IMG/VR virus record: IMGVR_UViG_3300042520_000788
Coordinates: 1 to 21,021 of that record
Direction: 5' to 3' (one strand)
Origin: a virus
Length of the DNA stretch: 21,021 bases
Positions within the stretch are counted from its first letter, which is position 1. The number at the start of each line of letters is the position of its first letter. A program made the position numbers and the translations under genes. Below are positions 2,021 to 19,287 of this stretch, one piece after another. The notes under the pieces were generated by a model. It had not been told where the DNA came from and made no database searches. It saw only the letters and a list, made by a program, of their open reading frames with translations.

Positions 2021-2497
2021 ATGATTACCGCAGCAGTATTAAGTTTATGTGTTATTGGTACAAGTGAACATGAAGGGTATAAAAAAATGCCTTATCATGA
2101 TAGAAATGGCGATATTTCTGTGGGGTATGGTTATAACCTAACAAAAAATCCTTTAGAATTAACGCCACGACAAATTAAAATTATTAAACGTCAGGGTATA
2201 TCAAGAGATAAAGCAGAAATGTTTGTTAGTGAAATGTGTAATCGTTTGGATACACAACTTCAAGAAACTTATAGTTGGTATTCTCAATTACCTATTACCT
2301 CACAGTATGTGATGCTGGATATGGGGTATAACATGGGTTTAGGTGGATTAGGTAAATTCACAAAGACCATTAAGTTAATTGAGAATAGACGCTTCACACA
2401 AGCATCACAAGAGATGCTGAAATCTAAATGGGCAAGACAAGTTTATGGGCGAGCTATTGATTTAGCTAGTATTCTTAAAACAGGTCATATAGCCTAA
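2021..2497 (+). CDS. Endolysin, T4-type lysozyme (glycoside hydrolase family 24)
   Basis: Muramidase that cuts the N-acetylmuramic acid to N-acetylglucosamine bond of peptidoglycan to release progeny. The T4 lysozyme catalytic pattern E-8x-D-5x-T is present as E18, D27 and S33, inside SEHEGYKKMPYHD and GDISVGYGYNL, so the usual Thr is a Ser. The C-terminal half matches the T4 fold, with MLDMGYNMG, GLGKFTKTI and SKWARQVYGRA lining up with the corresponding T4 helices. Length (158 aa) is close to T4 lysozyme (164 aa). ATG at 2021 is chosen for GGAGAGAG at 2009-2016. The first 12 residues are fairly hydrophobic but lack the basic start and length of a secretion signal, so a holin is probably needed; none is seen nearby. 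It lies on the strand opposite the structural genes and ends at a terminator. Confidence 0.93.
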   Translation: MITAAVLSLCVIGTSEHEGYKKMPYHDRNGDISVGYGYNLTKNPLELTPRQIKIIKRQGISRDKAEMFVSEMCNRLDTQLQETYSWYSQLPITSQYVMLDMGYNMGLGGLGKFTKTIKLIENRRFTQASQEMLKSKWARQVYGRAIDLASILKTGHIA

Positions 2498-8096: not shown

Positions 8097-9626
8097 TTAT
8101 CCCCACAATTTTAAGTCAAGTTTGTTATTTTCAAAGTCTGTTTGGATACCAATGACACGAAGGTATTTACCACTAGATAATCCATAGCGAGAACTGGTTA
8201 TTTTAACCACAGTACCTAAGTCAACTGTGGATAAAGAAGACGCATCAACTTTAACAGATACTGTTAAGATAATTCGTGCAGGGTCATAAATACTAAGAAG
8301 TCTTTGTGCTTCAGGCTCTGCATATTTTAATCCACAAAGAAGCGTTGATATTGTTACTTCTTGTGCATTTGGATGTGCTGTTTTAATTGAATCATCTTTT
8401 TTAACAGATTTACGGACTTCTTTTTCCAAATAAGATTTGTGGTCAGCCGCAACAGAACTTGCAAGTGAATCACCTGTTTGTACAGTCCAATTTTTATCAT
8501 GTTCTAGTGTGATTTTATATACTGCATCAGTAGAGCCATTTACACTTACTGATTCGCGCTCAATTGACATGATGCTGGATTCATCAAAATCAGCAACTGA
8601 TGTTGAACTTGGTGCATCAAGTCGAAGTATTCTAAATTTATTTAATGTATCAAATCCCCACCATGCACCAATTGATTCACAGAGATTATCAAGTACATCA
8701 GAAACCATAATATCACCTGATACCACAAGACCTACATTAGCTGCAATTTGTGCATCTAATGTTGTGTAATCAGATAAAACTAAATCACCTGTTGTTAATC
8801 CACCAGCAGAGGTAACAACTCTTTTCACAATTTGAGCAACAGTATTTTCTTCAACTGTTTTATATTGCCAAGCTACTGCTGTTAGCGTTCCTGTTGGAGT
8901 GCTTCCAAGTTTAATCATTCCCTCTGCTAAACAGGTGTTAAATGCCCCTAGAGCAGGAGCTGATGCTCTAAGTAATGCTGAGGTAGCATAGTTAGTTCCA
9001 CGAGCCAAATAGACCCCTTTATCGAAGACATTTACTACTTCAGTTAATACCCCTGTGGATATCTGATAGATAAGATAAAATGAATTAATTAATACAGGTG
9101 TCAAATTTGTCACACGACCAAGAATCATTGGTTTTTGTGCATCTTTTAAATCTGTTCCACCTTCATTAAAAATACTCACATTATCGTTTGTACCTGCAAA
9201 TAATAATGGTTGAACTTTCTTTTTTTGAAGGTCTGTAATTCTATCTCGAAGACGAATAGATACTCTTCCCCATTCAAATGCCGCTTGAGCAATACCTGCA
9301 ATTAGTACTGTGGTGAATGTTGAATAAACCGCATTATCATCACCTACTTTAATAGTCACAGTACGACCATCAAAAGCATAACTACTAAAGATATCAAGTC
9401 CACCATCAATATTCTTTAAGGTTAATTCACCATAACTTGATGTGGTTGTTCCACCAATTTTACCACTATTAAAAATGTCCCTGCGCATCATGCAAGGTTG
9501 CTCGATGCGAGGTTCATAGAAGTTACCATTTACAGTATCAACATACCCTAAGCCAGTTGAATAGCGTAGGGTTTCGATTGATGATGTTGTTAAGTTATAG
9601 GCTGTTATTTCTGCTAAATAAATCAT
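8097..9626 (-). CDS. Tail hub / tip protein-like, 509 aa
   Basis: Probable central tail-tip component that closes the tube and links to the fibre. It follows the tape-measure gene, where siphoviruses place distal tail and hub genes. Visible features: an N-terminal beta-rich part with SSYGELTLKNIDGGLDIFSS and the stretch FDGRTVTIKVGDD (about 65-100); AFEWGRVSIRLRDR; a middle region with DVLDNLCESIGAWWGFD (about 308-325); and a C-terminal part ending FENNKLDLKLWG, like hub proteins whose last strands describe coordinate changes. I cannot name a domain family with certainty. The ATG overlaps the tape-measure stop as ATGA (9623-9626), indicating coupled translation. No catalytic motif was found. 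It is about half the length of lambda gpJ, so the J functions appear split between this protein and the fibre. Confidence 0.65.
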   Translation of the reverse strand: MIYLAEITAYNLTTSSIETLRYSTGLGYVDTVNGNFYEPRIEQPCMMRRDIFNSGKIGGTTTSSYGELTLKNIDGGLDIFSSYAFDGRTVTIKVGDDNAVYSTFTTVLIAGIAQAAFEWGRVSIRLRDRITDLQKKKVQPLLFAGTNDNVSIFNEGGTDLKDAQKPMILGRVTNLTPVLINSFYLIYQISTGVLTEVVNVFDKGVYLARGTNYATSALLRASAPALGAFNTCLAEGMIKLGSTPTGTLTAVAWQYKTVEENTVAQIVKRVVTSAGGLTTGDLVLSDYTTLDAQIAANVGLVVSGDIMVSDVLDNLCESIGAWWGFDTLNKFRILRLDAPSSTSVADFDESSIMSIERESVSVNGSTDAVYKITLEHDKNWTVQTGDSLASSVAADHKSYLEKEVRKSVKKDDSIKTAHPNAQEVTISTLLCGLKYAEPEAQRLLSIYDPARIILTVSVKVDASSLSTVDLGTVVKITSSRYGLSSGKYLRVIGIQTDFENNKLDLKLWG

Positions 9627-12600
9627 CCTGCCAATGCTCTCATGCGATTATTAAAGGTGTCTTCTTGTGAAGTTGATACTAAATCAGTTAATTGAGCCAC
9701 AACAGTTGCATTTGCTTCTGCTTGTACAGTAACTAATGCACGAGTTTCAACGACTAATTGTGCTAATTGCTCATTTTGTAATTTCAATTCAGCAATAGTT
9801 TCAGCAGTATTAGTACTTGAATCATTTGCCGCTGGTTTGACAGTTGCCATTTCACTAACAGATATATTTGACCATGATGGATTTGCAGTTACTGCATAAG
9901 GGTCAAGAGTTATTGTTCCTGTTGGTGCAGCAATGATATCATTAACCACTGTTGTTAATGCTGATACGGAATCTAATGCTTTAGTTGTTGCAGCATCTGT
10001 TGTAGTACTAGTCGCCTTATCCGCCATCTTAGCAGTATTATCCGCTATCTGTGTTGTTTTTTCAAGCATTGTTGTTTGATAATCCACAGCACCTAAATTA
10101 GATACTTTATTCACAACATCTTGAACTAAATTAGCACCTACATCACCTGCACCATACATTTTTTGAATGTTTGTGATAAAGGTATCAGCATAACCTGTGA
10201 TTTTAGATTGAGCATTAGCCACATCAGTAGCACTATTTGCATTAGGATTATTTAAAATTGACAACATTGATTCAAATGCAACTTTTGATGCATTGAATTG
10301 TGATTCAGGTGAACCCACAGTTGTTGTCATTTTACCTAATACCCAATCAGATACTGATTTTCTAAATGATTCTACAGCAGTAGAACTTAATGATATTTGA
10401 TTATCATAGGCTTTCAATGCTCTAGTTGTAATCTTAACGGCATCATGCATTGTGGTAACGCCATCCACAGTTTCAGAATACGCATCAGTAATACCATAGT
10501 TAGCTTTAGTTGTGGTATCTAATCCAGATATCCATGATTCTACTGATTTTGTTAAATCTGGTGAGATAGAATTTAATAAAGTTGTAATATCATCAGTTGT
10601 ATTCAATGCCTTCAATGATGCTTCATTTGCTCGCGCTGTTGTTTCATCAGCAGTAGTTGACTTAGCTAAAATAGATTCTGCAATAGGACGTATCACACTA
10701 TCTTGATAATCGGTGACCGATTTAAATGCGGTTTTTAAATTAATGATACTTGCTGTTGCAGAATCCGATGCCGTAATCCATTCACCATATTTATCTGTCA
10801 AATAAGTAAATGCTTGTTCACGTTTACTAATATCTGTAATGCTAAGAATACCTGTTAACTGCTCTGTAATTGTTGCACGAGTAGCATCATCAACCATTGT
10901 AAATGTATTTTTTACAAATTTAGGTAATTCATTTGGTATATCTGCAAGTATCTTAGTTAGATTTGCCTGTTTTGCATCATTAGCCATGATAACAGATTTT
11001 AACTCTCTAAAGAATGCTAAGTTGGCATCACTACCTTTTGTCACTAATGTACCAGCAGTATTTTTAGTTGGGTCACCAAATAATCCAACTCTTTGTTTTG
11101 CAGTTAAATCAGCAGAAGTGATTGTGGCTAAATTGGTTTCATCATTGCCCATAGATTTCAACCATGATGAAAATTGAGAGGAACTTGCCTTACTTAATTT
11201 TGATAAGTCCATTGTTGGTAAAAATTCTTTTCTTGCAACTGCTAATCCAGATATTGCACCCGCTAATTTTTCTGAATTTTTAGTTGATAAATCAAATTGG
11301 GTAGTTAATTCTTTACCTGTCAATAAATTCAAATCTGTTGAAAGACTTAATTTATTTAAAACAGGAATTTGTTGAAGCAATACGCTCAATACAGGGTCAA
11401 TTGTACCTAATGCTGAATTCAAACTATTTGACATGACTGTTTTTTGAGTTTCTGTTGCATTAGCCGTAGTCATATAGGTACTTGGATTTGCAATAATATC
11501 TTTCACTTTATTTATTGCATCTACATTAGTGGCTAAAGTTTTATTTGCATCAATCAATGCAAATAAAACATCTCTATTAGGTGTTAATTCACTACCTTTA
11601 GTTATTTCTTTTGTTGCTTTTGCATCAAGTGTGGCTAATAAGGTAGTGCCTTTTAATTGTTCTGCTGTTACTGACTTTAAATCAGTTGCTGTTAATGCAA
11701 AACGATTTGAACCTGTTCTTAATGATAACTCTGCTTCACTGAAAATTGTTTTTGCTCGTGTTTCAAGTTCCACAGGGGTCATTGCTCTATTTACAACTTT
11801 ACCTTTAGCATCAATTTCTTGAATTGTGTTTGCTTGTTTTGCATAGGCTTTTAACGTATCTGAGCCTAATGCGGTCATTGTGTCTGCTACTTTTGTAAAT
11901 GGGTCAGCTAATGATTTTGATAAAATTGAAATTGCATCAGTTGTTAATGTATTTTTAGCAGTTGGCGCACTAGCAAGTAATAAACCTTGCTTATTAATAT
12001 CTGCTATTTTTGAAGATAAGTATGCTGCATCATTTGTAAATTGTTCACCTTTACTTGTCACAGCATTATAGAAGGCATCAATTGCAGTAATAAAATTCTT
12101 TAAACCATCATTTGCATTATTTGTTGATTCAAATAAATTAATCAGATTTTCAGACATGGTTATTAAACCAATACCACGAACAGAAATAGTGCTTCCTATT
12201 TTTTTGAATTGCTCATAAACAACATTAACATCAATTCCTATACGCGCAATAGTTTCATGTAATCCTTCACCCATTTTTTGGAATGGAGAAATAAAACCAT
12301 TAGTCACATCAGCAACAATATTGTCCATTGTTGTATTCAAAGACTCGGTGATTTTTTTATTTATTTCATCTGACTTTAATTTGGTAAATGATAATTTTAT
12401 TTTAGGTACAATAAATGTTGGGTCAACTAAATTACCAATACCTAACCCATTAATAACTTCATATAATGATTTGTTAAAATAACGGAAAACAGAACTTACA
12501 GCAACAGTTAAGTCTTTATTTATACCATTAATAACATCATAAATAAGCACATCATCACTAAACCATCCTTTCACAGTTCTTTTTATTTTACTGTAGTTAT

Positions 12601-15600
12601 AGACAGTAATGCCTTTGTTTGCACCACCTAGAATCATTTCTGTTGCATTACTTACGATACCATAACCAATGGCTTCATATTTTACTTTACCAATACCAAG
12701 TAATTTAGAAAGACCATATGTTACACCCAGCATTAATAGACCAATTCCGCCCATTGCCGCTGCTATCATTAAGCCGTTTAAAAACTGTTTTTCAGAAGCA
12801 CCTGTATTACCACTTGTCATTCCTTTAGTTGAACCACTAAAGTTACCATTATTAGCCACAGCTATAGAAACAACATTACCTATTGCATTATTGGTGTTTT
12901 TAAACCCATCAGCAATATCTTGCAAACTACGGTATTCTTTAGAATGGATGCTATTTAATGTATCCACAATACTACTAACTGAACTAGAACCTAATTCAGT
13001 ATTACCTTTTACAGTACCACTAACTTTAGTATCGGGTGTTGATAAATCTTTATACGAACCTTTAAATAATGCACCCATTAATCCTGTGATAATAGACCCC
13101 GCAGCGGCTAAACCAGCCACAATGAAGTTACCAGTCATCAATGCTTGCATTGCCACATTCATTAGTCCTTGACTAATTGATGCGACCATATTTTTAAACA
13201 TATCTCTGAATGCAGAAGTAAATGATTTCCCACGAGTCAATACATCGCTAAACATTGTGCTGAAACTAGAAGAAAGCGTTCCTGTCACAGTTGATTTAAT
13301 GTCATTCAAGCCTTTTAAGGTTTCTCTTGTGTCAATCAAACTTCTGATTTCCTCCACTTTAGCTCCTGTAGCACCTTGTTTACGAATTTCTTTTTGCTTT
13401 TCTAATTCCACAGTAGAAGAAGTAAGTGATTCCATTAAGTCATCATTACCTCTTTTTAAATTAGGAATCACATTGGCTTGTTGTTGCAATAAATCTAATT
13501 CGATTCTTGATACATCAGATGCTTGTTTTTTAGCATTAGCAATTTCTGATTCTAAAGCTAACTTTTTATTTAATGCCGCAACTTCAGCTTCAAAATTAGC
13601 TTGAGTTGGTTCAGCAATAGCAAGTGACTTTGCTGTTTCTAATTCTGCAACTGCTTTAGCACTTGCTTTTGATAACTCATTTTCTTTATCAGTTATCTGT
13701 TTAAGCATTGCATCAATTTCAGGTATTGCAAATCCACCTTTTTCCATGCCGAGTGTTTTTGCTTCAACTGAGATTGATTGACGTTCTTTTAAGAAATCAT
13801 AGGCATGAGCAGTACCATAAGCAGCTTCTGTTTGTTTGTCTAATGCTTCAATTACAGATTTATTTGCAGATTCAAATTCTTTTTGTGTTTGAACTGCATT
13901 CTTATATTCTTTCTCAGTTTCTTTTAAAGCACCTTGTGCTAAATCAAAATCCTTCTTTGATACTCTTGATGGAGCAGCATCAAATGCATTTCTTGCCTTA
14001 GCAAGTTCAACCTCTTTATTTTTTAACTCATTTAATTTTTGTTGTAATGTAACCAACTCTTTTGATTGTGCGCCATTTTCACCATTTAATCTTCCGAGAA
14101 TCTCTGGTGCAAATTTACGAGTTTCCATTGTGAGTTTTGATACATCACCTTGTACACCTTGCACACGACCTTTACCTGCATTATAAGCCGCTAATGCAAG
14201 TCTTACATCACCATTAAATGTTTTAAGTAAATCAGCCATTATCTTTGCGGCTGTTTCAATACTTTTTTCAGGGTCAAGTCTGTCTTTTAATGCCAATTTA
14301 TATGTCTGTGCAGTTGATTCACCAATCTGCATTAGACCTAAACCAGATTTAGCACCTGCGTAAGATACTGCTTGTGTGTTACCATGTGATTCTTGAACCG
14401 CCATTGATGCAAGTAGTGATGGTGATACACCATATTTAGTACCTGACTTTTCAAACATATCTTTAAACTGTGCAACTTCAGATAATGCTTTATTTTTATC
14501 AATTGACACAGATAGAGATAATGGATGCTTTGCACTAAAGTTAGTAAGCTCATTGCTTAATGTGCTAATTTCATCACGCACACCTTTAATTGCGGTATCC
14601 ATTCCTTGAAGTGTTTGTGCTTTTGCTTCAGGCTCTGACCAGCGTTTGGCTTCATCATTTGCTTTTTTTCTTTCAGTGAATGATTCTTTTTCAGCAAAGA
14701 TACTTGCATATTGCTTACGATAAATTTCATCGTAATTAATGCCAATATCAGTCAAATGCTTCTTATATGATTCCAAATCATCAAATCTAACTTTTGTGCC
14801 ATCTTTAATTGTTGTTCTTTGTTTTTCTAAATCTTTATCCATTTCTTTCAAAATGAATTGTTCTTTTTCAGAAAGACCTAGTCTGCGCAATTCTTCATTA
14901 TTAACCTCTGATTGCTTTTTAGCAATAGCCGTTAATTGCGCAATCTCATCTTCACGAGCTTGTCTTGCTTCATCATAACGCTTTTTATTTAAACGTCCTT
15001 GTTCATCGTTTGAGAATCCAACATTAGCAGCATCTAAACCTGAAGGTGTAAGTTTAGATAACATATTTGATGCAGATAAATTAGATTGATTTGGCACATT
15101 ACTTAAGCCAAATTTCATCGATGACATTTGTGTGCCAAATGCTTTCTCTTCTTGTGTTGGTAATCCTGTTTTATATGCTCGTTCTTGTGCTTTCTTTTCT
15201 GCTTCTTTTGCGGCAGAGTCTATTTGGTCAGATATCCAATTTCCAGCAACACCTGTTGGAGATAAGTCATATATTTTTTGCACAACATTATCAACTGATC
15301 CCATTGCATTACCTGCAATCTGTTTAGCATTAGGGAATTTTTTATCTAACCAATCTTTAAAATCACCTAATTTAGTCATCCAACTTGAAATTGAATCACC
15401 CAATCTATCTGTGACCACTTCAAACACATCACCCCAAGTAGATAATCCTTCACCAGTAACTTTTATTTCATCTTTGAGTAATGCAAATCCTGCTGTTAAT
15501 CCTGCAATAACTGCTATTGCCGCTCCAACTGGATTAATAGCAATAGCAATACCAGCAAATGATAATGCATACGCTCCTACAGCCGCTGTAGCTGCTCCAA

Positions 15601-17890
15601 TTACTCCCACAACAATATTGAAGTTATCTGCAATTTGTTGTGCCATCCGATAGAATTTATCAGATGCTTCAGTACCTTGATTTAATTGACCTACCCATTT
15701 TGTAAAACCATTCTCAATTGTTTGAAATGCTTGGGCAAATGTTTTATGTGTTTTTTCAAATGTGGCATCAATTTCATCTTGACCCATGATAATAGCTTTA
15801 GCAAATGCGGCAGATGCTACTTCACCTTGATACATCATATTTCTTAATGCTGAAATAGATAACTCATGTGTCTTTTCACTTTTAATCTTATCTAATTCTG
15901 CTTCTGACGCACCTCTAAGCGATGCTTCTTGTAACTTGATATCTTTAGCCGCATCTTGATAATGTTTAGCCACAGTAGCCATTACATTAGGCATACTATC
16001 CAAGATAGACTTAAATTCTTGCCCACGAACAGTTACGCCACCCAATGCTTGCTCTAATTGCAATAAACCACCACGAACAGCACTTGGAGATGTGCCCATG
16101 ATTGCAAGTGATTTTGTAACCACATCAATCATTTTGACAGTTTCGCCTTGTGTTATATTTAAGGTTTCAGCCGCACGGGACATTCTTAAATAAATAGATG
16201 TGATAGCTTCTAATGGTGCGCGATTATCTTGTGCAAGTTTAAATAACTTTTCTTGCATTTGAGCAGCACCACCTGTTTTCTCTGTGGCAATACCCACAGC
16301 ATTCACAAAGTGTAACCAGTTATCGGCATATTCAAGAACTTGACGACCAGACATTGCCACACCAACAAGCATTAATGCTGATTGAACTTTACCAAGCGAA
16401 TCACTTACTGCATTTAATGCGCTTGTTGTGCCTATAGTATTTGGAGCTGGTTGATTTGTAGATGTTGTGCCTTGACGACCCATCCAAGTTGAATTCAATG
16501 CTGCTTGACGCGATATAATTCTATCTTCACGAGCTTGTGCATCAGCGGCTTCTTTTATTGCTTTAAGACGGTCATTGCGTTCCATTTCAATAGATGCTCT
16601 TCTTACTGAACGTAAGTAAAGTTCATCTTTTTCCATTTGTGTGGATACTTGTTTAACGCCTTCAAGCCATTTTTTATTATTATCTTCAATTGCTTTATAG
16701 TTATCGGCTATTGATTTTTTTTGTAAATCTGAAACAAGACCCAATCCTGATGGTAATGCTTGATTTGCTGAAGGTGTCACTGTTGATGGTTTAATGCTAC
16801 CAAGTAACATTCCTGTTGCATCAACTTTTTGATTTTGACTTAGACCAGCGGGCATTCCGCTAAATGATGTGGGTGTTGGCGCGGTACTTTTAGAGCTACC
16901 AAGCATCATACCTGCTTGCGCCCATGTTTTCTTTTGTGTTTCTTCTGCTGTTTTTGCTATTTCTGCTTCTACACGTTTTGCTTCTGCAATTCGTTTTTTT
17001 CCTAATTCCATTTCATTAGCGAATGCTTGTAATGCAATCGCATTACGTTTTGCATATGCGTCTTCAATACTTTTCACAAGGGAATTGTATGCTTTTACTT
17101 CAGCATCGTTTTCTTTTTTAATTGCGGATTCTCTATTTCTTGCCGCTTCAGCATCTTTAGCCGCAATTATCTTTTTGCCTTCATCCACAGCAGCAACAAT
17201 CTTTTTATTCTTTTCAGCTTCTGCTTCAATCTCTAATTGCATTGCGCGTTTAGATTCAACTAATTTTAAAGCGGCTGTCTGACGATATAGTAAAATTGAT
17301 TTCTTATTTGATTCTGGAATCAAAGCCAATAACTTTTCAACTGCTTCACTTTGTGCCGCATATAATTCTTTATTGCCAGAATCCAATGCTTGTTTTTGTA
17401 AAGCAAACGAATTCTTTAAATCAATAATGGCTTTATTTGCATCTAAATCAAATGTGGGTGCTTTAACTTTTTTATTTGCTTCATTGATTTTGTCTGCTGT
17501 TTCAATAGCATTATTTACAATAGCATTTGATGCTGCTTTATTAATACCAACCAATTCTTGTGTTTTTTGTTTTTCTTTTTCAATCTGTAATTTACCTTGA
17601 GTTTCCATCTCAATACGAGCCATCTTAGCTCCTTCAAGCATGGCTTTACTGTAATCTTTACCTAATGCTTCAAAACCATCAGACATCTTCTTGATGTTAT
17701 CTTCAATGCTTTTAAATGATGATAAAGTCGCTTGACTGAAATTAATAGTCATTTCAACTTTATTAATAGAATTAATTAATTTATCTAAGCTAGATACCTT
17801 TGTAGCAATTTTGTCAATACTTGCGCTGGAATCATCTTTTACTCCAATCGAAAAACTAACTGTTCCGTCATTTGCTGGTGCTGTTGCCAT
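9623..17890 (-). CDS. Tape-measure protein with internal lytic transglycosylase domain, 2755 aa
   Basis: Sets tail length, occupies the tube lumen and is expected to help DNA cross the cell envelope. The N-terminal 500 residues are Lys/Glu/Ala-rich with long predicted coiled coils. About 515-720 is a tape-measure domain of the lambda type (for example RGGLLQLEQALGGVTVRGQE, then SMPNVMATVAKHY). Hydrophobic segments lie near 756-805, 1574-1606 and 1701-1729, candidates for membrane insertion during DNA ejection. About 1145-1245 is a soluble-lytic-transglycosylase-like domain with catalytic Glu in VQES (E1167), GLGLMQI and LALAAYNAGKGRV. The last 60 residues form a coiled coil ending in NNRMRALAG. 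ATG at 17890-17888 is preceded by AGAGGA 7 bases away and follows the chaperone gene by 11 bases. At about 1.5 angstroms per residue the tail would be near 410 nm, unusually long. There is no frameshift in the 8.3-kb frame. Confidence 0.95.
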   Translation of the reverse strand: MATAPANDGTVSFSIGVKDDSSASIDKIATKVSSLDKLINSINKVEMTINFSQATLSSFKSIEDNIKKMSDGFEALGKDYSKAMLEGAKMARIEMETQGKLQIEKEKQKTQELVGINKAASNAIVNNAIETADKINEANKKVKAPTFDLDANKAIIDLKNSFALQKQALDSGNKELYAAQSEAVEKLLALIPESNKKSILLYRQTAALKLVESKRAMQLEIEAEAEKNKKIVAAVDEGKKIIAAKDAEAARNRESAIKKENDAEVKAYNSLVKSIEDAYAKRNAIALQAFANEMELGKKRIAEAKRVEAEIAKTAEETQKKTWAQAGMMLGSSKSTAPTPTSFSGMPAGLSQNQKVDATGMLLGSIKPSTVTPSANQALPSGLGLVSDLQKKSIADNYKAIEDNNKKWLEGVKQVSTQMEKDELYLRSVRRASIEMERNDRLKAIKEAADAQAREDRIISRQAALNSTWMGRQGTTSTNQPAPNTIGTTSALNAVSDSLGKVQSALMLVGVAMSGRQVLEYADNWLHFVNAVGIATEKTGGAAQMQEKLFKLAQDNRAPLEAITSIYLRMSRAAETLNITQGETVKMIDVVTKSLAIMGTSPSAVRGGLLQLEQALGGVTVRGQEFKSILDSMPNVMATVAKHYQDAAKDIKLQEASLRGASEAELDKIKSEKTHELSISALRNMMYQGEVASAAFAKAIIMGQDEIDATFEKTHKTFAQAFQTIENGFTKWVGQLNQGTEASDKFYRMAQQIADNFNIVVGVIGAATAAVGAYALSFAGIAIAINPVGAAIAVIAGLTAGFALLKDEIKVTGEGLSTWGDVFEVVTDRLGDSISSWMTKLGDFKDWLDKKFPNAKQIAGNAMGSVDNVVQKIYDLSPTGVAGNWISDQIDSAAKEAEKKAQERAYKTGLPTQEEKAFGTQMSSMKFGLSNVPNQSNLSASNMLSKLTPSGLDAANVGFSNDEQGRLNKKRYDEARQAREDEIAQLTAIAKKQSEVNNEELRRLGLSEKEQFILKEMDKDLEKQRTTIKDGTKVRFDDLESYKKHLTDIGINYDEIYRKQYASIFAEKESFTERKKANDEAKRWSEPEAKAQTLQGMDTAIKGVRDEISTLSNELTNFSAKHPLSLSVSIDKNKALSEVAQFKDMFEKSGTKYGVSPSLLASMAVQESHGNTQAVSYAGAKSGLGLMQIGESTAQTYKLALKDRLDPEKSIETAAKIMADLLKTFNGDVRLALAAYNAGKGRVQGVQGDVSKLTMETRKFAPEILGRLNGENGAQSKELVTLQQKLNELKNKEVELAKARNAFDAAPSRVSKKDFDLAQGALKETEKEYKNAVQTQKEFESANKSVIEALDKQTEAAYGTAHAYDFLKERQSISVEAKTLGMEKGGFAIPEIDAMLKQITDKENELSKASAKAVAELETAKSLAIAEPTQANFEAEVAALNKKLALESEIANAKKQASDVSRIELDLLQQQANVIPNLKRGNDDLMESLTSSTVELEKQKEIRKQGATGAKVEEIRSLIDTRETLKGLNDIKSTVTGTLSSSFSTMFSDVLTRGKSFTSAFRDMFKNMVASISQGLMNVAMQALMTGNFIVAGLAAAGSIITGLMGALFKGSYKDLSTPDTKVSGTVKGNTELGSSSVSSIVDTLNSIHSKEYRSLQDIADGFKNTNNAIGNVVSIAVANNGNFSGSTKGMTSGNTGASEKQFLNGLMIAAAMGGIGLLMLGVTYGLSKLLGIGKVKYEAIGYGIVSNATEMILGGANKGITVYNYSKIKRTVKGWFSDDVLIYDVINGINKDLTVAVSSVFRYFNKSLYEVINGLGIGNLVDPTFIVPKIKLSFTKLKSDEINKKITESLNTTMDNIVADVTNGFISPFQKMGEGLHETIARIGIDVNVVYEQFKKIGSTISVRGIGLITMSENLINLFESTNNANDGLKNFITAIDAFYNAVTSKGEQFTNDAAYLSSKIADINKQGLLLASAPTAKNTLTTDAISILSKSLADPFTKVADTMTALGSDTLKAYAKQANTIQEIDAKGKVVNRAMTPVELETRAKTIFSEAELSLRTGSNRFALTATDLKSVTAEQLKGTTLLATLDAKATKEITKGSELTPNRDVLFALIDANKTLATNVDAINKVKDIIANPSTYMTTANATETQKTVMSNSLNSALGTIDPVLSVLLQQIPVLNKLSLSTDLNLLTGKELTTQFDLSTKNSEKLAGAISGLAVARKEFLPTMDLSKLSKASSSQFSSWLKSMGNDETNLATITSADLTAKQRVGLFGDPTKNTAGTLVTKGSDANLAFFRELKSVIMANDAKQANLTKILADIPNELPKFVKNTFTMVDDATRATITEQLTGILSITDISKREQAFTYLTDKYGEWITASDSATASIINLKTAFKSVTDYQDSVIRPIAESILAKSTTADETTARANEASLKALNTTDDITTLLNSISPDLTKSVESWISGLDTTTKANYGITDAYSETVDGVTTMHDAVKITTRALKAYDNQISLSSTAVESFRKSVSDWVLGKMTTTVGSPESQFNASKVAFESMLSILNNPNANSATDVANAQSKITGYADTFITNIQKMYGAGDVGANLVQDVVNKVSNLGAVDYQTTMLEKTTQIADNTAKMADKATSTTTDAATTKALDSVSALTTVVNDIIAAPTGTITLDPYAVTANPSWSNISVSEMATVKPAANDSSTNTAETIAELKLQNEQLAQLVVETRALVTVQAEANATVVAQLTDLVSTSQEDTFNNRMRALAG

Positions 17891-17901
17891 GATTTATTCC
17901 T

Positions 17902-18642
17902 CTATTTATCGGATGATTCTTTATCTTGTTTACTGTTGTAATGCTCTAAGTACACTCGGTCAAGTAATTTAATTACTCGTATTTCATAAGGCGATAGTGA
18001 GACACCAACTAATTCACACCATGCTTTGATTTCGCTGTAGGAGATAGCATTCATGCCCATACCACTTTGACGTGTGCTATTTAAATCTAAGAACCACTCC
18101 CACAAGTACATAATAATGTGGCTAACCTCCACAGTAGTAAGTTCTTGTGGGGTAATCCCTGTCATTTCCTCGACAGCCTTAAGATGTTCCCTATAGGTTG
18201 CACCATCCTTTTGTTTCTCGGATAGCTTTAATTCATTTTTAGTATATTCAACTAATTGTTCAACTAATGAATCTAAAAATAATCCCACACTATTTGATGC
18301 TTGAGTTATTTGTTTTCGTATAGATTGATTAGTTGAACATACATCAAGAATATTCTCGTAAGTAAATTCTTCTTCAACTCCACGCCAACCAACAGTTCTA
18401 AGGACAGATGATTGAATTTCAAAATCACGTTCTTCTTCCACACTAAAAAATGAATCGGAAGAAGGGGATAATTCTTTTATTTGAGCCACACGTTGTTTAA
18501 ATAGTAACGTGCCTTTTGTGTTGAAATTTACTCGTTTGGCATATTGTGATATAACACTTATATAAACTCCTATCCCTTGACCAGTAATGTCAGAGATGAC
18601 TTCAAATTCATAAGGTGTTTCACAAATAGGTAAAATATTCAT
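17902..18642 (-). CDS. Tail-assembly chaperone, gpGT-like (G-like and T-like domains in one gene)
   Basis: Predicted to bind the tape measure and recruit tube protein. Residues 1-124 are a paralogue of the 131-aa protein upstream: CETPYEFEV (7-15) matches CDTPYDLDI; TVGWRGVEEEFT (83-94) matches IVGWSGIEETFT; STNQSIRKQITQAS matches KTNPVIRDQVVTAS. Residues 125-235 have no counterpart there and resemble T-domain proteins, with YLWEWFLDLNSTRQSGMGM, SYSEIKAWCELVGV and EIRVIKLLDRVYLEH. So this looks like a built-in gpG-T fusion, which lambda makes by frameshifting. The next ORF is the tape measure, as expected for gpGT. No Shine-Dalgarno sequence is visible before ATG 18642-18640, and no other in-frame start exists between it and an upstream stop, so initiation may be weak. 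Its own promoter lies just upstream. Confidence 0.85.
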   Translation of the reverse strand: MNILPICETPYEFEVISDITGQGIGVYISVISQYAKRVNFNTKGTLLFKQRVAQIKELSPSSDSFFSVEEERDFEIQSSVLRTVGWRGVEEEFTYENILDVCSTNQSIRKQITQASNSVGLFLDSLVEQLVEYTKNELKLSEKQKDGATYREHLKAVEEMTGITPQELTTVEVSHIIMYLWEWFLDLNSTRQSGMGMNAISYSEIKAWCELVGVSLSPYEIRVIKLLDRVYLEHYNSKQDKESSDK

Positions 18643-18669
18643 ATGGTTAGGTATGGTATATGTCTCATT

Positions 18670-18698
18670 ATTATTTCACAGTTTATCAGATTTGTCAA
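18670..18698 (-). promoter_or_regulatory. Near-consensus sigma-70 promoter for the gpGT/tape-measure operon
   Basis: On the minus strand, TTGACA (18698-18693, perfect -35) is followed after 17 bases by AATAAT (18675-18670, five of six matches to TATAAT). Transcription should start near 18663, giving a leader of about 20 bases without a ribosome binding site. It lies between the terminator of the upstream gene and the 246-aa chaperone gene. Confidence 0.75.
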
Positions 18699-18706
18699 TG
18701 TCAGCA

Positions 18707-18748
18707 GATAAAAGAAAACCCTATTGAAGATGCTCCTCAATAGGGTTT
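18707..18748 (-). terminator. Intrinsic terminator after the 131-aa chaperone gene
   Basis: 12-bp perfect stem, AAACCCTATTGA paired with TCAATAGGGTTT (18716-18727 and 18737-18748), with a 9-base loop. On the minus strand the tail is TTTTCTTTTATC, so it stops leftward transcripts. It separates the two paralogous chaperone genes. Confidence 0.9.
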
Positions 18749-18772: not shown

Positions 18773-19168
18773 CTATTTTGTATAGTGCGACATATCTTCT
18801 GAAGCAGTGACTACTTGGTCACGAATCACAGGATTTGTTTTGCACAATTCAAAAGCGAGTTCTGGTGTGAATGTTTCTTCAATACCAGACCAGCCTACAA
18901 TACGTTTTGCAGCTAACTCAATACCAAACTCTAAGTCGTCTTCAACTTTAGTTACTGGTACATCTTTGCCTTTTTTTGTCATTTGTGATTCTGCTTGGCG
19001 TTTAGCATTAACTGCTTTTGCAACAAGTTTGGTAATCACTTGGCTATGTGCGCCAATAACTTTTAATGTAATACCTGTTGATTTACCAGTTTGTTCATCA
19101 ACAATATCTAAGTCGTAAGGGGTATCACAAGCCGCTTCAACATTGAGCGATTTTAATGAGATTGCCAT
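18773..19168 (-). CDS. Tail-assembly chaperone, gpG-like, 131 aa
   Basis: Probable major tail-assembly chaperone that coats the tape measure. The order CDTPYDLDI (14-22), TGKSTGITLKVIGA, a charged linker, IVGWSGIEETFT (90-101), then KTNPVIRDQVVTASED with a short polar C-terminus (YTK) fits, from memory, siphovirus gpG-like chaperones. It shares its whole length with the N-terminal half of the next gene. ATG at 19168-19166 has the ribosome binding site AAGGA 8 bases upstream. It is transcribed from its own promoter and ended by its own terminator, so it may be made in large amounts. Reading past its stop gives only 4 codons in the -1 frame and 17 in the +1 frame, neither T-like, so no frameshift product is expected. 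Confidence 0.85.
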   Translation of the reverse strand: MAISLKSLNVEAACDTPYDLDIVDEQTGKSTGITLKVIGAHSQVITKLVAKAVNAKRQAESQMTKKGKDVPVTKVEDDLEFGIELAAKRIVGWSGIEETFTPELAFELCKTNPVIRDQVVTASEDMSHYTK

Positions 19169-19218
19169 ATGGAAAGTCCTTCAATTTTGGTTAGTAAAAT
19201 TGCTTATGCAACATAATA

Positions 19219-19248
19219 ATCTTACCACGTCATCCTAACTAAAGTCAA
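19219..19248 (-). promoter_or_regulatory. Putative sigma-70 promoter for the gpG-like gene
   Basis: TTGACT (19248-19243) is followed by an 18-base spacer and TAAGAT (19224-19219) on the minus strand. It lies just after the tube-gene terminator and 50 bases before the gpG-like start. The -10 is only four of six to consensus, so strength is uncertain, but its position is the same as that of the promoter in the next spacer. Confidence 0.6.
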
Positions 19249-19260
19249 GTAATTTACTAC

Positions 19261-19287
19261 AAAAAGAAAGACCCTCTTTCGAGGGTC
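19261..19287 (-). terminator. Intrinsic terminator after the tail-tube gene
   Basis: 7-bp stem GACCCTC (19270-19276) and GAGGGTC (19281-19287) with a 4-base loop. On the minus strand it is followed by TTTCTTTTT, a typical U-tract. It lies 31 bases beyond the stop of the tube gene. Confidence 0.88.

Follow-up and report, generated by a model that had tools for sequence, protein, structure and literature searches.

How might a phage produce the two tail assembly chaperones, the short G and the longer GT, from separate genes that have a predicted terminator and promoter between them? In phage lambda, the G and GT products are made in a ratio of 30:1, which has been called crucial, and the frameshifting involved is widely conserved in long-tailed phages, T4 excepted (PMC5009743). 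The window analyzed here, a stretch of viral DNA of 21,021 nucleotides taken at its full length and belonging to a group of uncultured tailed phages, carries such a pair of genes in a tail module on the minus strand. DNA polymerase and lysozyme-like genes lie on the opposite strand (2-1936 and 2021-2497, plus strand), and a hairpin is found at 2499-2522, between the converging modules. The features of the chaperone region are listed below in the order in which they would be transcribed; the 38-kb relative mentioned here and later consists of loci L036 and L037.

19270..19287, minus strand: predicted intrinsic terminator 3′ of the tail-tube gene, GACCCTCGAAAGAGGGTC then TTTCTTTTTG, 7 pairs of which 5 are G-C; the site is also present in the 38-kb relative.
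19219..19248, minus strand: predicted promoter of G, TTGACT-18-TAAGAT with TGn.
19177..19181, minus strand: Shine-Dalgarno sequence AAGGA of G, read directly.
18773..19168, minus strand: G-type tail assembly chaperone, 131 aa, matching phrog_313 (Tail assembly chaperone, E 1.3e-11); T domain absent.
18716..18748, minus strand: predicted intrinsic terminator between G and GT, found by scan.
18670..18698, minus strand: predicted promoter of the GT-tape measure unit, TTGACA-17-AATAAT, with TGn at 18678-18676; start expected near 18663.
18643..18663, minus strand: predicted 5′ leader of GT, with no G residues and no Shine-Dalgarno sequence; one fixed difference between clades.
17902..18642, minus strand: GT, 246 aa, in which a G paralogue (about residues 1-120) is fused in frame to a T domain.
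17944..18174, minus strand: T domain, Pfam PF23812 Phage_TAC_18, GT residues 157-233 (E 2.3e-22, 79.4 bits against a cutoff of 27).
9623..17890, minus strand: tape measure protein, 2755 aa, called by size and position; its gene comes next after that of GT and has the Shine-Dalgarno sequence AGAGGA.

Both domains are homologous to known chaperones, G through phrog_313 and GT through PF23812 as well as phrog_8233, and the locus is flanked by a tail-tube gene (PF18906) upstream and by the tape-measure-sized ORF downstream. Given these family matches and flanks, we read the locus as G followed by a G-T fusion. An earlier note on this DNA had described the two chaperone genes as paralogues, and the alignment bears this out, with 30% identity over 117 aa in the G region (E 1e-19). 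The T domain occurs only in the longer gene, in frame with the G-like domain and within a single ORF, and G is a separate ORF located 130 bases upstream of GT. The length of the tape measure protein differs in close relatives, being 2755 aa in the window (9623-17890, minus strand) and 2818 aa in L036/L037 (17999-26455). A search by sequence for a solved structure found none.

We ran the G and T profiles on the stop-to-stop ORFs of all fetched loci, those where the G profile fell below threshold being uninformative on frame layout. At every locus outside the window clade that gave matches to both domains, two different, overlapping frames carry G and T, and most of these relatives carry a slippery heptamer at the end of G (GGGAAAC, GGGAAAG, AAATTTY or TTTTTTG). 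This includes a Bradyrhizobium hit (H8) that gave the impression of an in-frame fusion in BLAST and actually has two frames. In the set that we used for comparison with the lambda-type -1 frameshift, namely Pasteurella phage Pm86, Mannheimia phage 1152AP2 and Synechococcus phage Yong-M4-211, the likely slip sites are GGGAAAC, GGGAAAG and AAATTTC. In Limnohabitans and allies, T is in another offset and there is no -1 heptamer; the Limnohabitans/Curvibacter-type loci (L006, L051-L053, L058-L060, L090) have T at an offset of +1 or -2 and AACTTTCG at the end of G, which suggests a slip of a different kind.

In the window, G and T do not lie in overlapping different frames, and no canonical slippery heptamer was found at the fused junction of GT or within the final 75 nt of G. 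One contig of the second clade, L014, has AAACCCT in this part of G; the motif lies 5′ of the homologous site and is not followed by a T frame. In matched register at the end of G, locus L098 reads AACTTGGGAAACTACACCAAG where the window reads GATATGTCGCACTATACAAAA, so that the slippery site of the window's G appears to have been lost through substitution. A hidden frameshift was ruled out, as G contains no heptamer and no T domain follows it in any frame. With two paralogues, T present only in the longer one and no heptamer left, the sequence shows no way to obtain both G and GT other than their separate expression.

In the gap that separates the 131-aa gene (19168-18773) from the 246-aa gene (18642-17902), a scan found a hairpin with arms AAACCCTATTGA/TCAATAGGGTTT, whose minus-strand layout (18748-18716) is AAACCCTATTGA-GGAGCATC-TTCAATAGGGTTT, then TCTTTTATCT. 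Its outer invariant stem has 12 bp, exactly as the earlier note had reported for a terminator at this place, and the scan counts 15 pairs and a 3-base loop because inner bases can pair too. The hairpin has the highest pair number among the 20 terminator-like sites in 20 kb (shuffles: mean 10.8, sd 2.7) and a predicted energy of -19.7 kcal/mol, and its conserved, GC-containing stem and U-rich tract are those of a predicted intrinsic (Rho-independent) terminator. An A/T palindrome, TTTTCTTATAATAAGAAAA (18772-18754, minus strand), stands directly 3′ of the G stop codon and just 5′ of the terminator; in the second clade, it is one pair shorter but retained. The same note had placed a near-consensus promoter, TTGACA-17-AATAAT, within 20 bases of the terminator and facing the 246-aa gene, and indeed the -35 box starts 17 bases beyond the stem. 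This predicted promoter is of the extended sigma-70 type (TTGACA, 17-base spacer, TGn and -10 hexamer), and with 11 of 12 matches plus TGn it is the single best of 60 promoter-like sites in the 20-kb scan. As these 60 sites are fewer than in shuffles (mean 79.5), a lone match to the consensus proves little, and we therefore tested conservation.

Close relatives of GT were found in 15 contigs of the viral collection, falling into two groups at ~98-99% and 83-84% protein identity, and a scan of genome contigs found no relative. No close isolate turned up among the collections that were searched. In the 13 homologous contigs of the two clades that cover the whole 130-base gap between G and GT, 17 of the 130 positions vary, with none among the 39 positions of the stem, the hexamers and TGn (P = 0.0014); the variable parts include the loop of the hairpin and the interval from terminator to promoter. 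An assembly artefact was ruled out by the identical layout in more than a dozen contigs from the two clades.

The promoter form also recurs. In the 38-kb relative, the pattern TTGACW-N13-15-TGn-WA..T has six sites on the coding strand and none on the other, where 0.7 were expected under a Markov model, a figure that is descriptive because the pattern was defined after inspecting the sites. All six are in gaps upstream of genes: before the gene at 1650, the capsid gene (two sites), the gene at 13016, G and GT. In L036, three genes, at 1650, 16721 (G) and 17247 (GT), have the motif CTAACC in their leaders, between promoter and start codon. Because it is present in both chaperone leaders, we considered that the G leader had been copied to GT with loss of the Shine-Dalgarno sequence, an idea that we rejected, as aligning the two gaps gives no clear gain over shuffles (86 of 2,000 as good in the relative, 322 of 2,000 in the window).

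Upstream of G, the gap after the tube gene (19287-19219) has a terminator and promoter arrangement resembling that between G and GT. Both hexamers and the TG of the G promoter are retained in the two clades, and its spacer has diverged. On its coding strand, the 38-kb relative has only two terminator-like sites with at least 5 G-C pairs in the structural module, and they bracket G. As read from the DNA, G is thus a one-gene unit with a predicted terminator-promoter pair on both sides, an arrangement that strongly suggests that G and GT are transcribed separately.

The two genes differ further at their starts. In the 38-kb relative, the anti-Shine-Dalgarno energy of GT, at +2.7 kcal/mol, is the weakest among 31 genes, compared with -5.4 for G and -6.0 for the tape measure gene, and GT is the only gene directly behind a promoter of the family to have no Shine-Dalgarno sequence. 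Translation initiation at GT is therefore likely to be poor. It is not certainly so, since local structure in the start region is weak (about -2.4 kcal/mol), and good translation is possible from a start that has little structure and lacks a Shine-Dalgarno sequence; low GT output is likewise not certain. The GT promoter is nearer consensus than the G promoter, which by itself would favor GT over G.

We consider it probable that the two proteins are made from two genes and not by programmed frameshift. Given that G has a separate unit and GT the weakest Shine-Dalgarno sequence, the excess of G is most likely achieved by separate transcription together with weaker initiation at GT. According to this model, G would be made in quantity from its own promoter, Shine-Dalgarno sequence and terminator. 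GT, a diverged copy of G fused in frame to the T domain, would be expressed from a strong-looking promoter through a leader that has no Shine-Dalgarno sequence, and would head a separate unit with the tape-measure gene and downstream tail genes, made in smaller amount. The gene structure, the missing frameshift site and the conserved terminator and promoter sequences are read from the DNA, whereas the activity of these elements, and their part in setting a ratio, is inferred. The earlier note had proposed that the ratio may come from separate promoters rather than from slippage. The absence of a heptamer and the separate units agree with this, but the promoters may not act alone given the GT start, and translation initiation, a likely second control on G:GT, was absent from that proposal. 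Similarly, its claim that the tail operon is broken at G/GT agrees with the predicted elements there and is too narrow as to place, since the boundary between tube and G likewise has a predicted terminator-promoter pair.

Because the GT promoter would also feed the tape-measure gene and the downstream tail genes, it is not only a ratio device. It is conceivable, if rather unlikely, that the whole arrangement is ordinary punctuation of transcription units, the promoter mainly driving the tape measure and downstream tail genes, with an incidental effect on G:GT and a ratio set mainly by translation initiation. The like arrangement between tube and G, the same promoter form before the capsid gene and other units, and the fact that the tape-measure unit has no further coding-strand terminator of similar quality all fit this explanation, as does the position of the weakest Shine-Dalgarno sequence at GT. 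That both coding-strand terminators of that quality flank G is, however, beyond what generic punctuation would call for.

We regard as unlikely a leaky terminator, through which G, GT and the tape measure gene would be largely co-transcribed, the promoter adding a minor boost and the hairpin mainly stabilizing the 3′ end of the G transcript. The U-tract is interrupted (TCTTTT), intrinsic terminators are seldom fully efficient, and termination at this hairpin may be only partial; yet a strong promoter right behind such a hairpin would be little needed, and the two are conserved together.

Even less credible is the absence of a functional G/GT pair, with GT alone sufficing or the 131-aa gene having another role. 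The low identity of the copies, 30%, would agree with it, and so would the faster evolution of the G half of GT (dN about 0.16, compared with 0.015 in G). On the other hand, both genes find matches among tail assembly chaperone families, lie in the interval from tube to tape measure, and evolve under purifying selection: dN/dS between clades is about 0.04 for G and about 0.18 for GT, so that both are constrained, GT less. 

In the G-domain tree, G and the G half of GT are in one region without coming out as sisters, and grouping them is not rejected (p-AU 0.47), which is compatible with an origin of the pair that may lie in a duplication within the lineage. In the T-domain tree, the window stands away from the group that was nearest to it in the first G tree, and no single donor is indicated.

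Finally, a chance origin of both terminator and promoter is very improbable. Promoter-like consensus matches are common and the scan total is below shuffles, but the cores are invariant across clades and score best in the window, and the promoter form recurs in gaps; for the promoter, conservation and recurrence led us to reject chance.

Going beyond separate expression of G and GT with unequal initiation, we put forward, tentatively and at somewhat less than even odds, that a lineage of siphoviruses has done away with the tail-chaperone frameshift, which is otherwise near-universal. A copy of G would have been fused in frame to T, the slippery site substituted away, and the ratio rebuilt from two promoters and a GT start lacking a Shine-Dalgarno sequence. 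As GT is placed in the tape-measure operon, its amount would scale with the tape measure rather than with G.

Like the lambda-type systems, the window has a G-like protein and then a T domain, situated from tube to tape measure, and a long protein that shares the N-terminal part of the short one. Those systems use slippage to join a single G gene to an overlapping T frame, whereas here there are two genes, no heptamer, and a terminator and promoter between them. As reported in papers that cite it (PMC10885494, PMC12846349), the work of Vladimirov et al. 2022 (PMID 34826709) attributes the chaperones of T4-like phages to a mechanism other than frameshifting. A precedent from another family is T4, where gp26 and gp51 likewise come from two separate paralogous genes; each has a match of about 200 residues to Pfam PF12322, and gp51 is the longer by a C-terminal extension of about 48 residues. 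In contrast to the window genes, they belong to a myovirus, are divergently transcribed, and are unrelated by sequence comparison, as a Pfam scan of the window gave no PF12322 match and BLAST found GT not similar to gp51. They are said to be the genes meant in the 2022 study. At the T4 locus (L092, 5803-6429 and 6480-7229), an internal-start form of gp26, 26', is annotated. Two chaperone ORFs also occur in some Microbacterium phages, where, as in the window, there is no evident frameshift (PMC7302621). In these phages (Espinosa genes 15 and 16), the second ORF is short and does not resemble the first, so that the long protein is not a paralogous G-T fusion. Compared with the open-licence literature, the window clade is apparently an independent siphovirus-type example of separate chaperone genes, with frameshifting relatives for comparison.

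For the authors of PRFect, chaperone genes left as an unjoined pair are largely gaps in annotation (PMC10885494); the present locus warns that a frameshift should not be forced wherever two chaperone genes occur. Few recoding events in tailed phages are as widely conserved as the G:GT frameshift, and a lineage that does without it beside frameshifting relatives would mean that the slip is not indispensable. Such a lineage would thus offer a natural test of whether the product ratio itself, and not the mechanism, is what selection maintains.
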